A program made the position numbers and the translations under genes. A DNA stretch of 64,000 nucleotides from an uncultured Eubacterium sp. Its GTDB lineage: Bacteria; Bacillota; Clostridia; Lachnospirales; Lachnospiraceae. Positions 32,414-43,878 of the stretch are shown here, piece by piece. The DNA is taken from positions 1-64,000 of the forward strand of contig CAMDYG010000006.1 of assembly GCA_945910225.1 (NCBI GenBank), in the 5' to 3' direction. Below the pieces are notes generated by a model. The model worked only from the letters and a program-made list of their open reading frames with translations, was not told the origin of the DNA and made no database searches. Each line of letters starts with the position of its first letter. Position 1 is the first letter of the stretch.

Positions 32414-33406
32414 CTATCTTGGAGATAAACGTTTCATACATCTTATATCATCTCCAAAAAGCCGCAGAATAGAGTAGGCACTGACTAATCTGGAAAAAAT
32501 GCGCTGGGAATAACGTGATTCTATATCTGGCATTTCAAGATTAGAAGATATAATGACACTCTTGCGTCTTAACATTCTTTCATTGATTACATAGAACAGA
32601 TTAGAGAAATTATAGCTTGACCCATTCTCAGTTCCGAGATCATCAATTATAAGAAGATCACATTCAAGAAAGAACGATGTGTCAAATCTGGATTCGCCAT
32701 AATCTTTGTAGTCACCGCTCTTAAAAGCATCAAAGAATTCACCTGCAGTAAGATATATAATGCTGTGGCATGAATCCATGAGTGCTTTGGCTATGCAGTT
32801 GGATAAAAATGTTTTACCAACACCTGTCTGACCTATAAACAAAAGATTAGAAAAAGTGTTGTCAAAATTGTCAACGAATTCGTGACATACATTAAGAACC
32901 TTTTGCATATTATTATAAGGTGTGAGCCCTGTGGCGGGATCAACATCAGTGTTGTTGTACCATTTAAGAGAGAATGTATCGAAATTCTCATTATTGGTTA
33001 TATTCTTGAGATTGGAATCCTTATATATCAGGTCAATTGCTTTCTTATTAAAGCATATGCATCTATTGCCATTAACATACCCTGAATCTTTACAGTAAGG
33101 ACAAGTATATATATCATCAAGATAATCTGCAGGCTTACCAATCGAAGCCAGAGCAGATGCCCGTTTTAAGCGTAGTGTCTGAAGCGCAGAGTCTAATTCA
33201 TCAGCAGTCGAGTCAGATGAATCTGAACTTATGCGTGCTCTGGCGTTTGCCATAGATATATCTATAATTGAGGAATCAATATCTGCTATCTGTGGGCATA
33301 ATGATATAACTTCATCATAACGCTCCTGCTGGATATGACGATTAGCTGTTCTGATATCATCGTAAATTCTCATTATAGACTCATGTTGGGTATTACTTAA
33401 AGGCAT
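32414..33406 (-). CDS. DnaC/DnaI-like helicase loader ATPase
   Basis: LLFIGQTGVGKTFLSNCIAKAL; CDLLIIDDLGTE; N-terminal Cys motif CPYCKDSGYVNGNRCICF. Confidence 0.88.
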   Translation of the reverse strand: MPLSNTQHESIMRIYDDIRTANRHIQQERYDEVISLCPQIADIDSSIIDISMANARARISSDSSDSTADELDSALQTLRLKRASALASIGKPADYLDDIYTCPYCKDSGYVNGNRCICFNKKAIDLIYKDSNLKNITNNENFDTFSLKWYNNTDVDPATGLTPYNNMQKVLNVCHEFVDNFDNTFSNLLFIGQTGVGKTFLSNCIAKALMDSCHSIIYLTAGEFFDAFKSGDYKDYGESRFDTSFFLECDLLIIDDLGTENGSSYNFSNLFYVINERMLRRKSVIISSNLEMPDIESRYSQRIFSRLVSAYSILRLFGDDIRCMKRLSPR

Positions 33407-33426: not shown

Positions 33427-34590
33427 TTAATTATTATTACTTAGCAAAGAATTATACCAGTCATCAGACTTTTTAGGACGCTGCTGGTAGTTGTTAAAGC
33501 GGTTAGCGTTCTGCTTGATAACATTACCAGACTTGGTACTCTTGGAAGCTTTAGAGGCTTCATACTGGGCATCAGCTTTTTTAATATCATCGGAATTTCT
33601 TATATTAGATGAATTCCATTTTGTGAGAATTGAATCAGCGTATTCAAAGCTTGGCTGATGAGTAGCTTTAAGAGTTCTGTTACAGGCTTCAACAATCATA
33701 TCTGTATCAAAGCAGAATACATCAGTCCATTTAGAAATAAGCTGTTTCTCAGTCTGTCCTGGCTCTCTGTTATTAAGTCCGAACGCACGCATTACACTAT
33801 ATACAGCTTCATTATGAGATGATACTTCATCACGTGCAGCTTCTACAGTGTTGATGCCTTCTTCAGCCCATGATAAGGCAATCTTTTCAATATATCTTAA
33901 AGCAGTCTTACCTTTTGATACACAATACTCAAAGAGATATTCAATAAGATCTGCAGGGAAGTGAAGTGTATCATAAAAATATACGATGGCGTTAACTTCT
34001 GAGTCAGATAAAGTCTTTCCAAGATAAGTCTGGACTACAAAAAGGAGCATTGAAAAATCATCATTGGATGAAAGCTCATTAAGCTTCTCTGCCGGAGCTG
34101 TAATCTTAGAAGGTTCAATATCATTAAAGCTTATGCTGCTGTTGATTCTGCTTATTGGTACAACATTAGCGCTTGAATCAGGCGTTCCAGAGTATCCTGC
34201 AACATTGCGCTGTGATGAGTAATTGTCTTCAATTTCAGATAAATCTGTATGTACAGGCGCTTTGGTATTGTCAGGCTTAGGACTGTTATCAGTAGATACA
34301 GCTTTAAATGTTATACCGCATAACTGCTTGTTATTGTCGTATGACAAAGATAAAAGACCAAGCTTGTCCCAATATCTTAACGCACGCATTATATCATTCT
34401 CTGTCTGATTAAAAGTATCAGCAATATGAGAGATGCTTAAATTATTACTGCTTCGGGAAAGCAAGCGTAACAGATACAGATATACCTTAACAAAGTCTCC
34501 GTTAGCGGATGGAACGTATTGGTCTATAAAAATATCAGAAACTGCGGTGTAACCAGAAGCAGTCTCTGAAGATAAATTCAGATTATTCAT
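33427..34590 (-). CDS. DnaD-domain replication initiation protein
   Basis: Winged-helix N-terminus; YLGKTLSDSEVNAIVYFYDTLHFPADLIEYLFEYCVSKGKTALRYIEKIALSWAEEGINT. Confidence 0.88.
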   Translation of the reverse strand: MNNLNLSSETASGYTAVSDIFIDQYVPSANGDFVKVYLYLLRLLSRSSNNLSISHIADTFNQTENDIMRALRYWDKLGLLSLSYDNNKQLCGITFKAVSTDNSPKPDNTKAPVHTDLSEIEDNYSSQRNVAGYSGTPDSSANVVPISRINSSISFNDIEPSKITAPAEKLNELSSNDDFSMLLFVVQTYLGKTLSDSEVNAIVYFYDTLHFPADLIEYLFEYCVSKGKTALRYIEKIALSWAEEGINTVEAARDEVSSHNEAVYSVMRAFGLNNREPGQTEKQLISKWTDVFCFDTDMIVEACNRTLKATHQPSFEYADSILTKWNSSNIRNSDDIKKADAQYEASKASKSTKSGNVIKQNANRFNNYQQRPKKSDDWYNSLLSNNN

Positions 34591-34674
34591 GGTATCATTC
34601 TCCCCAAATGTTATGAGCAGATTATACCACTGAAAAAAATAAATGCAAAGCGCACCAGGTGCGGAAAGGAGGTT

Positions 34675-34820
34675 TGTGGAAAATGTGGATAATGTGGATA
34701 AATGATAAGGGAACTTAACAAAGGTGCATAAAACAGGAATTTAAAAATTTACAAAATAAAAAATTATCCACAACTTTTATTCACAAATAAGTGGCAAAAA
34801 ATTGTGGATAATGTGGATAA
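34675..34820. promoter_or_regulatory. DnaA-box cluster
   Basis: TGTGGAAAA 34675, TGTGGATAA 34684 and 34693, TTATCCACA 34764, TTATTCACA 34777, TGTGGATAA 34803 and 34812. Confidence 0.85.
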
Positions 34821-34855
34821 CTTTGTTGAAAAAGTTCAGATTGGTTGAAAACTTA

Positions 34856-36235
34856 CTATTTAAGCAAGTCTTCACCTATTTTGTAAACATCACCAGCGCC
34901 CATAGTTATTAACAAGTCACCGTTGATACAATTTTTTAATAAATATTTTTCAATGTCCTCAAAATTATCAATGTATACACATTCTTTTCCGAGAGACTTG
35001 ATCTTTTCACATAAATCAGCCGAACTGATTCCGAGAGTATCAGTCTCTCTTGCTGCATATATTTTTGCGAGGACAACCTTATCAGCGTGGCTTAATGCAT
35101 CAGCAAATTCATTGAATAATAGCTTTGTGCGTGAATATGTATGAGGCTGAAAAACGACCCATATATGATTGTGAGGATAGTGGGCAGCAGAACTTAATGT
35201 TGCACGTATTTCATCCGGATGGTGAGCATAGTCATCAATGACAGTCACACCATTAAAAGTTCCTTTTTTCTCAAATCTTCGGTTAGTGCCTTTAAAGTTG
35301 GCAAGACCGGCTTTGATGTGATCCATATCAACATACAGCTTTTTTGCAGCAGCAATAGCGGCAAGAGAGTTATATACATTATGGAGACCAGGAACGCCAA
35401 GAGTTATGGAGTCAGCCTTCTTGTTATTAATAAGAAGAGAATAGGTGCATCTGCCAAAATCATCATAAGTGATGTCACATGCACTATACATGCTGATTTC
35501 TGGATCAGAACCAAAAGTAATGACTTCACAGTCGGTATCCTTATAAAAATAGTCATAATTATCAATGTCGGTATTAATTATAAGTGTTCCGTCTGATGGA
35601 AGCTTTTCAGTAAAAAGCTTAAATGAATGACGGATATCATTAATGTCTTTAAAGAAGTCAAGATGATCTTCTTTAACATTGAGAATTATGTTCATGGTTG
35701 GATTAAATGATAAAAAACTGTTGGTGTATTCGCATGCTTCTGCTACAAAATATTTGTCACCACCAACTCTGGTGTTGCCACCGATACTGTTAAGTATGCC
35801 GCCTACAGAAATAGTGGGGTCCATATTGGCAGAAAGCAGAATTTCAGAAATCATGGATGTAGTAGTTGTTTTTCCGTGAGTTCCGGCTATATTAATGGCA
35901 TTATCATATATTGTCATTATCTGACCGAGAAGTTCGGCACGTGTAAGCATTGGAATTCCTGCGGTTCTGGCTGCTACAAATTCTGGATTGTCTGGGTGGA
36001 TTGCTGCTGTATATACAACAAGATCTATATCATTAGTAATATTACCGGCGCTTTGAGGGATGGAAATTAAACATCCATCACCAGTAAGTTCGTCGGTAAG
36101 CGCTGATGAGTTAGAATCGGAACCTGAAATAGTAAAACCTTTAGATAAAAGAATTTTGGCAAGTCCGCTCATACTGATACCACCTATGCCAATGAAGTGT
36201 ATATGGATAGGGTTGTTGAAATCAATCTTGTACAT
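34856..36235 (-). CDS. murC: UDP-N-acetylmuramate--L-alanine ligase
   Basis: HFIGIGGISMSGLAKILL; GTHGKTTTTSMI; DDYAHHPDEI; FQPHTYSRT. Confidence 0.97.
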   Translation of the reverse strand: MYKIDFNNPIHIHFIGIGGISMSGLAKILLSKGFTISGSDSNSSALTDELTGDGCLISIPQSAGNITNDIDLVVYTAAIHPDNPEFVAARTAGIPMLTRAELLGQIMTIYDNAINIAGTHGKTTTTSMISEILLSANMDPTISVGGILNSIGGNTRVGGDKYFVAEACEYTNSFLSFNPTMNIILNVKEDHLDFFKDINDIRHSFKLFTEKLPSDGTLIINTDIDNYDYFYKDTDCEVITFGSDPEISMYSACDITYDDFGRCTYSLLINNKKADSITLGVPGLHNVYNSLAAIAAAKKLYVDMDHIKAGLANFKGTNRRFEKKGTFNGVTVIDDYAHHPDEIRATLSSAAHYPHNHIWVVFQPHTYSRTKLLFNEFADALSHADKVVLAKIYAARETDTLGISSADLCEKIKSLGKECVYIDNFEDIEKYLLKNCINGDLLITMGAGDVYKIGEDLLK

Positions 36236-39690: not shown

Positions 39691-42600
39691 ATGAAAACAA
39701 AAAAGGGCAAAAGAATAGGCGCCATAGTTATGGCAGTTCTAATGATCGCTGGTATTATGCCAACTGATTGGGCAGCAAAGAAAATTAGTGCTGCAACGAA
39801 AATTAATACGTATGTGCTTGATGCGGCAGATTTAGAGACAAAGGCAGCAGGCGCTTTCGGTGATGGTGATGAAGTTAAAGCCGGAACAGATAATTTCTTC
39901 ACTATTATTAATAGCAAGAAAACAAAATATGATACATCATCAAAATCATTTGATGATGGCTATGAAGGAACAAAGAGAATAAATTTCGGAGAAGGAACAA
40001 CAATAGATAAGGATTCCATAAAGTTCACAACAGAAGGAACAGCAAAAGTAAAAGTGTGGTGGGTAGAAGGTGGAGAAGACAACCGCCAGCTTACAATACT
40101 TAAGGCAGATGGAACAACAGCACAGGTAACAAGTGGAACATATACAAAGAATAGTATGTATATCACAGAGTTTGAGCTTGCAGAGGCAGGAACATATTAC
40201 CTTGGCTCAACACCAAAGTGCAACTATATATTTAAGGTTAAGGTAGACGATGAAGTTGCTGTAACACCAACATATGTAGAAAAGGTTACAACACTTGATG
40301 CGGCAGATTTAGAAACAAAGGCAGCAGGCGCTTTCGGTGATGGTGATGAAGTTAAAGCCGGAACAGATAATTTCTTCACTATTATTAATAGCAAGAAAAC
40401 AAAATATGATACATCATCAAAATCATTTGATGATGGCTATGAAGGAACAAAGAGAATAAATTTCGGAGAAGGAACAACAATAGATAAGGATTCCATAAAG
40501 TTCACAACAGAAGGAACAGCAAAAGTAAAAGTGTGGTGGGTAGAAGGTGGAGAAGACAACCGCCAGCTTACAATACTTAAGGCAGATGGAACAACAGCAC
40601 AGGTAACAAGTGGAACATATACAAAGAATAGTATGTATATCACAGAGTTTGAGCTTGCAGAAGCAGGAACATATTACCTTGGATCAACACCAAAATGCAA
40701 TTATATATTTAAGGTTCAGGTTACACAGACAGTTGAATCAGATGGTGGTAATGTTAAGCCAGAAAGAGCAGCATGGGATACAGTAGCAGCACCAGTTATT
40801 ACATCTGTTACAGATAATAATGATGGTACAGTAAAAGTCAGCTATGATTGTGTTGTAGGATATGATGGAGCAGACAGAGTAGAAGTAACAATGAATGGTA
40901 CTGAAGTTAAAAAGTCTTCAAAAGAAGGAACAAGCGGTTCAGTAACATTTACACCAGCATCAACAGGTGAGTACTCATTCACAATTAAAGCAGTAAGAGA
41001 GAATGAGACAGACAAAGCTGGTAATTCAATGAATGGAAATTTCGTTCTTCCACTTGCAACACCATCTGTTACAAGTGCAACAAGCGCAGGTAATGGTGCA
41101 GTTGATATTACAATTGGTACAGTTAAAGAAGCAACATCATACAATGTGTATGTTAATGGATCACTTGTAGGATCTACAACAGAGAGTTCATACAGAATAA
41201 CAGGATTAACAGTTGGAGAAAGATGCTCTATTACAGTAGAAGCTGTAAGAAGTAATCCGGCTGCAGTATCATCTAAGTCAGCAGCCGCAGAGGTTACTGT
41301 AACAGCAGATGCTAAGATGGTATGGTCAAAGGCAACATATGGTTCATCAGTAGATACTAAGAATAATGGAGTTTCAGGAAGCATAAATGATGGTTCAGTA
41401 ACAATCTACTCAGAGAGTGGAAAGGGTAAACTTGTTCCAGCCTCAAAGGATGGTCTTACATTTAACTATGTAACAGTTCCAGCTGATAAGTCATTTGCTA
41501 TATCAGGAAAGATCCATGTAGATAAGTGGACGCTTTCTAATGGACAGGAAGGTTTCGGACTTATGGTTTCTGATAGAGTTGGTCAGGATGGAGACGGTTC
41601 TGATTTCTGGACAAACTCAGTTCAGGCAGTTGCCAGCAAGGTAGAATACTACTATGATGGTACATCAGTAACAACAGATAATACTCAGGCTAAAATATCA
41701 ATGAAGCTTGGTGTTGGTGTATATGCAAGAACAGGAATAACAGCACAGGATCTCTCAGATCTTACTAATGGAAAGATTCAGGCTCCTGTATCAGCTAACG
41801 ATAAGACAAAGTTCTTCCAGAGAACACTTGAGACATCTAAGGCTGCTGAGGGCGCAGGAGTATACAACATAATTGGTAATGGTACTAAGGGAGAAACTGG
41901 TATAACAGATATGTATTTCTCTATGGAAGAGATTAAGACAGACGGAGAAATAGGTTATATCGTTACATACATGGATGAAAACAAGAATGTTATCGGACAG
42001 GATACAGTAATGGGCGATATGACATTACTTGATACAGATAACAAGTATGTTGGTTTCTTTGCAGCAAGAAATGCAAGAATCACAGTAACAGATGTTAATT
42101 TTGAATTAAGAGATTCAGTTAAGGAAGTTGTTGTAGAAGACAGAGTGGTAGTACCTAACTACAATGTAACATCAGCAGCTAATGCTAACTCTGAGAATTA
42201 TGTATTAACATATAAGTCAGATGTTAATGGAACAGTAACAATTACAGCAGCAGATGGAACAGTAGTTGCAGATAATGTTGCAGTAGAAGCTTATAAGACA
42301 TATAAGTTCAATACAACACTTAAGATGGGATCTAACAAGTTTACAGTAGTATCTTCACCAGAAGCAGGCTACAGACCATCAAAACATGAAGTATTAAGCT
42401 CATATGAAACAGTAACACAGGAATTCACAGTAACATTAAATGGTTTCGATGGAACAGTAATTTATGTTGGACCTAATGGTTCATCAGGAGCAACAGGTTC
42501 TAAGGAAAATCCAGTAGATATCTACTCAGCAGTTAAATTTGTTAAGGCTGGACAGAAGATATTACTTCTTGAAGGAACATATAATTTAGAGTCAACAGTA

Positions 42601-43878
42601 AAGGTTGCTAGAGGAATTGATGGAACAGCAGATAATATGATTTATATGATTGCTGATCCTGATGCAACAGAAAGACCAGTACTTGATTTCGGTAAGAATT
42701 GTGAAGGTATGGTTCTTGGTGGAAATTACTGGTACTTTGCAGGATTTGATGTAACTAATTCAGCAGATGCTAAAGATGGAGCACGTCTTTGCGGTAACTA
42801 TAATGTAGTAGATAACTGTAACTTCTACAACAATGGTAATACAGGTCTTCAGATAAGTGCATATAACAATTCTAATGATGCAAGAGAAGACTGGCCATCA
42901 TATAACTTGGTTCTTAACTGCTCATCATTCTCTAATGCAGATAAGGGTTATGAAGATGCAGATGGATTTGCAGCTAAGTTAACAGTTGGCGATGGAAACG
43001 TATTTGATGGATGTATTTCATACAATAATGCAGATGATGGATGGGATCTTTTCGCAAAGACTCAGACAGGAAATATCGGATCAGTAACAATTAAGAACTG
43101 TGTTGCATATGGCAATGGATACCTTGCAGATGGTACAGATGCTGGTAATGGTAACGGATTCAAGATGGGTGGAGACAGCCTTACAGGATATCATAAGCTT
43201 ATCAATTGTGTAGCATTTAATAACAAGGCAAAGGGTATTGATTCTAACTCTTGTCCTGATATCCAGATTGAGAATTGTATTTCATTTAATAATGAATCAT
43301 ACAACGTAGCACTTTATACTAACTCAGCTGTTAATACAGATTTCTCAGCTAAGGGAATTATTTCATTCAGAACTAACAACACAGATATTAATGAGCAGTT
43401 CAAGTTCAAGGGAACACAGGATGAAACAAAGGTATATAATGCAACTAACTATTTCTGGAATTGTACAGAGAAGGGCACTAACAATGCAAACGGATTAGTA
43501 GTAGCAGACTGGTTCAAGTCAGTTGATACAACATATAATCCAGAAACACATGTATTTGCACAGAGAGTAGTAACAAGAAATGCAGATGGAACAGTTAATA
43601 TGAACGGCTTACTTACACTTACAGATGCTAAGATTGCTGAACTTGGTTTTGCAGCAGGAATTGGGGAAGGAAAAGCATCTATTAAGTTAGGAGAAGTTCT
43701 TTCAGATGAGGATGTTGTAACAACAGGACTTATCATCAAGACCAAGACAGCAGAGGTTGCTGCAGATGAAACAAAGACAGGTGATGCAAGCAATATGCTT
43801 ATCTACATTATATTAATGGCAGCAGCACTTGGATTGGCTGGATTTGGATATGCGCAGAAGAGGAAGAATGTTCTTTAA
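39691..43878 (+). CDS. Secreted multidomain PL9-type pectate lyase with C-terminal surface anchor
   Basis: N-terminal signal; C-terminal beta-helix with YEDADGFAAKL, NADDGWDLFAK, GNGFKMGG, NKAKGIDSNSCPD; DETKTGD plus hydrophobic segment plus QKRKN. Confidence 0.88.
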   Translation: MKTKKGKRIGAIVMAVLMIAGIMPTDWAAKKISAATKINTYVLDAADLETKAAGAFGDGDEVKAGTDNFFTIINSKKTKYDTSSKSFDDGYEGTKRINFGEGTTIDKDSIKFTTEGTAKVKVWWVEGGEDNRQLTILKADGTTAQVTSGTYTKNSMYITEFELAEAGTYYLGSTPKCNYIFKVKVDDEVAVTPTYVEKVTTLDAADLETKAAGAFGDGDEVKAGTDNFFTIINSKKTKYDTSSKSFDDGYEGTKRINFGEGTTIDKDSIKFTTEGTAKVKVWWVEGGEDNRQLTILKADGTTAQVTSGTYTKNSMYITEFELAEAGTYYLGSTPKCNYIFKVQVTQTVESDGGNVKPERAAWDTVAAPVITSVTDNNDGTVKVSYDCVVGYDGADRVEVTMNGTEVKKSSKEGTSGSVTFTPASTGEYSFTIKAVRENETDKAGNSMNGNFVLPLATPSVTSATSAGNGAVDITIGTVKEATSYNVYVNGSLVGSTTESSYRITGLTVGERCSITVEAVRSNPAAVSSKSAAAEVTVTADAKMVWSKATYGSSVDTKNNGVSGSINDGSVTIYSESGKGKLVPASKDGLTFNYVTVPADKSFAISGKIHVDKWTLSNGQEGFGLMVSDRVGQDGDGSDFWTNSVQAVASKVEYYYDGTSVTTDNTQAKISMKLGVGVYARTGITAQDLSDLTNGKIQAPVSANDKTKFFQRTLETSKAAEGAGVYNIIGNGTKGETGITDMYFSMEEIKTDGEIGYIVTYMDENKNVIGQDTVMGDMTLLDTDNKYVGFFAARNARITVTDVNFELRDSVKEVVVEDRVVVPNYNVTSAANANSENYVLTYKSDVNGTVTITAADGTVVADNVAVEAYKTYKFNTTLKMGSNKFTVVSSPEAGYRPSKHEVLSSYETVTQEFTVTLNGFDGTVIYVGPNGSSGATGSKENPVDIYSAVKFVKAGQKILLLEGTYNLESTVKVARGIDGTADNMIYMIADPDATERPVLDFGKNCEGMVLGGNYWYFAGFDVTNSADAKDGARLCGNYNVVDNCNFYNNGNTGLQISAYNNSNDAREDWPSYNLVLNCSSFSNADKGYEDADGFAAKLTVGDGNVFDGCISYNNADDGWDLFAKTQTGNIGSVTIKNCVAYGNGYLADGTDAGNGNGFKMGGDSLTGYHKLINCVAFNNKAKGIDSNSCPDIQIENCISFNNESYNVALYTNSAVNTDFSAKGIISFRTNNTDINEQFKFKGTQDETKVYNATNYFWNCTEKGTNNANGLVVADWFKSVDTTYNPETHVFAQRVVTRNADGTVNMNGLLTLTDAKIAELGFAAGIGEGKASIKLGEVLSDEDVVTTGLIIKTKTAEVAADETKTGDASNMLIYIILMAAALGLAGFGYAQKRKNVL
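39817..40716 (+). repeat. Two near-identical ~423-bp direct repeats (39817-40239 and 40294-40716, 477-bp offset)
   Basis: Both encode LDAADLETKAAGAFGDGDEVKAGTDNFF...CNYIFKV. Confidence 0.93.

Follow-up and report, generated by a model that had tools for sequence, protein, structure and literature searches.

Helically phased arrays of abutting DnaA boxes upstream of dnaD suggest DnaA-dependent control of a helicase-loader operon in Lachnospiraceae

Why does a short gap between murC and two helicase-loader genes carry a dense cluster of DnaA boxes? The gap (34591-34855, 265 bp) lies in a 64,000-nucleotide stretch of DNA from an uncultured Eubacterium sp., the whole of which we call the window. 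All genes around it are on the minus strand, in the order murC (34856..36235; Pfam Mur_ligase domains), which lies upstream and whose end bears the first box pair in relatives, dnaD (33427..34590; a DnaD/DnaB_2 primosomal protein of 387 aa, Pfam DnaB_2 5e-40) and a dnaC/dnaI-like helicase-loader ATPase gene (32414..33406; 330 aa, Pfam IstB_IS21 and Bac_DnaA ATPase domain), followed by a PRPP-synthetase-like gene. The nearest named relative found for dnaD was that of Eubacterium sp. AF22-9 (73% identity), and other named relatives were mostly Lachnospiraceae, from which we take the family name. Elsewhere in the window, 39691-43878 encodes a predicted surface protein of 1395 aa, whose N-terminal tandem of two near-identical ~150-aa domain copies looks like a recent internal duplication.

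The initial annotation had read seven DnaA-box-like 9-mers in the gap, five of them exact; all seven were recovered at the same positions, and five of the seven are perfect TTATCCACA. Pair 1 (34803..34820, minus strand) consists of two exact abutting TTATCCACA in dnaD sense, which read in the window as TGTGGATAA at 34803-34811 and 34812-34820. Array 2 (34675..34701, minus strand) comprises two exact abutting TTATCCACA (34684-34701) and then TTTTCCACA (34675-34683), so that three boxes abut; in window letters these are TGTGGAAAA at 34675-34683 and TGTGGATAA at 34684-34692 and 34693-34701. A single exact TTATCCACA on the plus strand (34764..34772) is antisense to the other exact boxes, and a one-mismatch box, TTATTCACA (34777..34785, plus strand), follows it. 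The 64-kb window has seven TTATNCACA sites, six of them packed into 137 bp; shuffling the whole window gives 4.9 per 64 kb. As exact TTATCCACA occurs 54 times in the 2.41-Mb genome (100 contigs), ~0.003 would be expected in 137 bp against the five observed; the clustering is far above chance, and the gap is the densest exact-box cluster found in its own genome. Five exact boxes in 137 bp thus form a high-affinity cluster outside oriC, as a DnaA-titration site would. The genome has a single dnaA copy that we could find, with the box-binding domain intact. At 34646-34690 (plus strand), AAAGGAGG then GTGGAAAATGTGG resemble a ribosome-site-like start, opening a tiny reading frame across the array 2 boxes; this is probably a coincidence.

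Boxes at this density raise the question of a replication origin. Origins in Firmicutes usually lie where dnaA, rpmH and dnaN adjoin one another. None of these genes neighbours the murC-dnaD gap; all three sit side by side on contig C26, where GC skew passes from about -0.25 to +0.2 at dnaA. Across the 64-kb window the skew does not change sign, staying positive and dipping only around minus-strand genes. The skew switch, which had been proposed as a check on an origin, is thus at dnaA and not in the window. The same holds for a relative (G138) in which the switch in sampled skew falls between 1.46 and 1.61 Mb, with dnaA at 1.53 Mb and dnaD at 2.20 Mb. In two single-contig relatives dnaA lies at ~1100 and dnaD at 519 kb (G085) or 287 kb (G046), and in G085 the boxes change their strand bias close to dnaA and again half a genome further on. 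Box spacing also differs from that of the family's oriC, being 0 bp within pairs here and mostly 2-3 bp near dnaA. Skew and dnaA position together reject the gap as oriC or as a secondary origin, and the secondary origin element that the initial annotation had kept open found no support.

Two features of the gap had gone unmentioned in that annotation: inverted pairing between the box at 34764 and that at 34803-34811, and promoter-like sequence between the boxes and dnaD. The first belongs to a predicted intrinsic terminator of murC (34755..34812, minus strand), a hairpin ATTATCCACAA...TTGTGGATAAT with perfect 11-bp arms (34812-34802 and 34773-34763), followed by a T-run, whose RNA fold is predicted at -22.7 kcal/mol (z -7.3). 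Its 5' arm overlaps the box at 34803-34811, its 3' arm holds the inverted box 34764-34772 and its loop region contains TTATTCACA. The hairpin and T-run indicate that the inverted box and much of the A/T-rich run are parts of the terminator. The A/T-rich stretch described between the box groups is thus present, partly as the U-tract of this predicted terminator; as an unwinding element it was rejected, being mostly predicted U-tract and spacer. Of 172 loci, 125 have pair 1 as the 5' arm of a hairpin resembling a terminator, against 2.1 expected after shuffling. Pair 1 starts only a few bases from the murC stop codon at most loci, and 35 bp past the stop in the window.

The second feature is a predicted sigma-A-type dnaD promoter (34621..34649, minus strand), in which TTTGCA (34649-34644) and TATAAT (34626-34621) are separated by 17 bp and a TG precedes the -10. 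By a simple scan, the promoter-like match in the window is no rarer than in shuffles; its weight comes from recurrence across loci. Equivalent promoters were predicted at 148 loci, 106 of which have TATAAT as -10, and the commonest -35 is TTCTCT or TTCTCA, that is, a weak TTCTC[TA] with an extended TATAAT -10. Array 2 lies 119 bp from pair 1 and 75 bp from the predicted -10 in the window, and across loci the second pair is mostly 75-97 bp upstream of the predicted -10. The boxes overlap neither the predicted -35 and -10 nor the start site. Consensus boxes here stand in a fixed relation to a predicted promoter, as at DnaA-regulated promoters. The scan also flagged a 5-pair hairpin at 34663-34651. 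The motif TTTACATAA, conserved in the spacer, was considered as an extra element and dropped, only 23 of 78 gaps having it.

Whether boxes are kept upstream of orthologous dnaD genes had been named as a further check, and they are, family-wide. Of 150 genomes of the family, almost every one from a different genus, 148 yielded dnaD and 89 contain the exact abutting pair TTATCCACATTATCCACA, with no occurrence of the reversed control pattern. Among 150 TTATCCACATTATCCACA sites listed, 80 (in 56 genomes) were directly upstream of dnaD. All 78 loci with murC adjacent, comprising the named loci and the window, have at least two boxes (at most one mismatch), and 64 have an abutting pair. At genus level, with pairs called at up to three mismatches over 18 positions, an abutting (0-bp) pair occurs in 101 of 109 murC-dnaD gaps versus none of 545 shuffled gaps. 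Exact boxes in these gaps are overwhelmingly in dnaD sense (461 versus 13 antisense). Two box groups are found in 70 of the 109; as some genera retain one array only, not all genera could form a loop. A sample across the class, with other families making up most of it, has the exact 0-bp pair in 46 of 292 genomes, and none of the loci retrieved from other families has it between murC and dnaD. In one other family of the class (L159-L165), 0-bp pairs separate the 3' end of dnaB, the replicative helicase gene, from a FAD-dehydrogenase-like gene.

The distance between pair 1 and pair 2 ranges from 86 to 189 bp and falls into classes near 87, 99, 109, 120, 132, 142, 155, 165 and 176 bp. The idea of phasing came from the named set; the test set was the genus-level one, which overlaps it only partly. 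Over 64 genera the spacing has a period of 11.1 bp (R 0.64), an R that none of 2000 smoothed null sets reached. To lessen the influence of kinship, neighbours on the MurC tree were joined into 60 independent sister pairs, whose spacing differences were 0-2 bp in 30, 3-8 bp in 3, 9-13 bp in 10, 14-19 bp in 2 and 20-24 bp in 5. With 9-bp differences left out, a possible product of the box register, the signal at 11-11.1 bp had p 0.0001-0.0008. No periodicity was seen in three control distances: -10 to start codon, murC stop to dnaD start, and pair 2 to dnaD start. We thus reject an artefact as the source of inter-array phasing, since the 11-bp signal persists with strict pairs, with sister pairs, with 9-bp differences dropped and against the control distances. 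Pair 2 is also phased with the predicted -10 (period ~10.2 bp, R 0.82); after sister pairing this has p ~0.002 at 10.5 bp and is partly confounded by the 9-bp box register.

Under phylogenetic and distance controls, the inter-array spacing is thus limited to whole helical turns (11.1 bp), as expected of loop-forming site pairs. In vivo, looping by lac repressor is favoured every 11 bp, with best spacings of 133 and 144 bp (PMC8501960), and the ~11.1-bp quantum of the murC-dnaD arrays is the helical repeat that DNA loops have inside bacteria. In both systems the two sites stand 90-190 bp apart and prefer spacings at 11-bp intervals. In contrast to the lac loops (PMC8501960), the murC-dnaD pattern comes from evolution rather than construction, the presumed binder is DnaA, and both sites are upstream of the promoter. 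The dozens of genera amount to a natural helical-phasing experiment in which the distance between the arrays has changed mostly in steps of a whole turn.

Successive same-sense boxes in murC-dnaD gaps are 0 bp apart in 293 cases, 3 bp in 70 and 2 bp in 11. Exact pairs with gaps of 1-8 bp (mostly 2-3 bp) occur in 27 genomes whose dnaA is mapped, and in 20 of these they are no more than 2.5 kb from dnaA. Of 24 0-bp pairs that lie elsewhere than at dnaD in genomes with a mapped dnaA, none comes within 10 kb of that gene. At the genome's own oriC (L105, 13958-13998), boxes are paired with 2-3-bp gaps, for example TTATCCACAAGTTATCCACA. Origin and regulatory DnaA sites thus seem, from their sequences, to use different box spacing, and the contrast is a candidate sequence rule separating the two in these genomes. 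DnaA of E. coli favours pairs 2-3 bp apart (PMC11317965), and the literature examined held no documentation of DnaA binding to 0-bp pairs.

Pairs with 0-bp spacing recur upstream of hpf, encoding a ribosome hibernation factor and often beside secA, where they are in hpf sense and 230-420 bp from the start (L108 5023-5137, L172, L175, L183 and ~20 further loci). The genome under study has a degenerate pair upstream of hpf on contig C22 (L366 / L031). In some genomes hpf has two pairs, 75-76 or 97 bp apart, a difference of about two helical turns. Smaller groups of 0-bp pairs occur close to trmB and to a small DUF1858-like gene (the latter named by eye), and the other large flank cluster of 0-bp sites is a mixture of different proteins.

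We consider it probable, on the sequence evidence, that the arrays serve DnaA-dependent control of the helicase-loader operon dnaD-dnaC. DnaA would bind both groups of abutting high-affinity boxes: array 1, where murC ends and its terminator is predicted, and array 2, immediately upstream of the predicted dnaD promoter; DnaA on array 1 would contact DnaA on array 2 across a loop of ~90-190 bp and would be held on a fixed helix face relative to RNA polymerase. Transcription of dnaD-dnaC would then track active DnaA, with titration of DnaA as a by-product. The constant orientation and place of the boxes, the whole-turn distances from array to array and from array to promoter, and the weak -35 suggest that DnaA acts on the dnaD-dnaC promoter in a complex that is looped or stacked; a loop is the probable form of the DnaA-bound element. 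What the sequence itself shows is a set of conserved boxes, their overlap with a predicted terminator, a promoter-like motif that is likewise conserved, both phasings and no origin signals; DnaA as the binder, the loop and the sign of control are what we infer. The preference of the initial annotation for DnaA regulation of the helicase-loader genes or titration over oriC is supported by the outcome of its checks on box conservation and the skew switch, with regulation as the conditional part. E. coli DnaA-regulated promoters with double boxes, such as purH, likewise have paired same-sense boxes upstream of a gene, where DnaA is thought to bind as a dimer (PMC11317965). However, pairs there are 2-3 bp apart, whereas here they are 0 bp apart, in two helically phased arrays and before helicase-loader genes.

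As to the sign, the weak -35, together with boxes placed upstream of the promoter and not over it, slightly favours activation over repression. The opposite sign, a variant within DnaA-dependent control rather than an addition to it, is possible but doubtful: the DnaA loop would repress dnaD-dnaC and DnaD would relieve the repression as feedback. Paired looped sites are classical for repression, and DnaD of B. subtilis is reported to inhibit cooperative DnaA binding (PMC5295017), which by analogy suggests a possible feedback. However, the typically weak -35 and boxes clear of the -35, -10 and start site, with array 2 mostly beginning 75-97 bp upstream of the -10, argue against it.

An unlikely alternative is that the arrays, like datA or the Bacillus DnaA-box clusters, mainly absorb DnaA or promote ATP hydrolysis, the neighbouring gene being incidental. 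The box density, highest in the genome as far as found, fits such a sink, and in B. subtilis removing six extra-oriC clusters advances initiation (PMC5295017). These clusters (Okumura 2012, via PMC5295017 and PMC13220808) are similarly dense non-oriC boxes that may lower free DnaA; term searches of the two reviews gave no link of them to dnaD, phasing or terminator overlap. E. coli datA and DARS also resemble the gap in having few high-affinity boxes at a non-coding site away from oriC (PMC5295017). However, datA needs IHF, which B. subtilis is without (PMC13220808), whereas here array 2 is tied to a predicted promoter. A sink would need neither a fixed gene context and orientation across 100 genera nor promoter phasing, and the boxes per site are few.

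It is more improbable still that a different, unknown regulator reads TTATCCACATTATCCACA as an 18-bp direct repeat, its resemblance to DnaA boxes being only partly relevant. The 0-bp spacing, unlike the 2-3 bp near oriC in the same genomes and a departure from the E. coli rule (PMC11317965), would fit such a protein, but each half of TTATCCACATTATCCACA is a perfect DnaA consensus and third boxes occur at 3-bp spacing in the same gaps (70 cases). A secondary or dormant origin is scarcely credible, for although DnaA boxes adjoin an A/T-rich stretch and helicase-loader genes, the window is without a skew switch, the flip occurs at dnaA in this genome and at dnaA rather than dnaD in G138, and the A/T run is mostly terminator tract and spacer.

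DnaA-regulated promoters and extra-oriC clusters are already known kinds of site; new here are the family-wide arrangement of two phased arrays, the overlap with the terminator and the 0-bp grammar. Our search of the open literature found no report of DnaA boxes upstream of dnaD or linked to dnaD regulation. Beyond DnaA-dependent control of this operon, we tentatively envisage a family-wide DnaA loop switch in which abutting-box dimers whole turns apart would set helicase-loader supply. The 0-bp code would be distinct from the 2-3-bp code of oriC, one initiator reading both, and the same code at hpf might tie replication capacity to ribosome hibernation. The finding bears on an apparently open link in Firmicute replication control, namely whether the initiator DnaA governs the supply of its own helicase loader, and a DnaA loop at the helicase-loader operon would be directly testable in a family of abundant gut bacteria.
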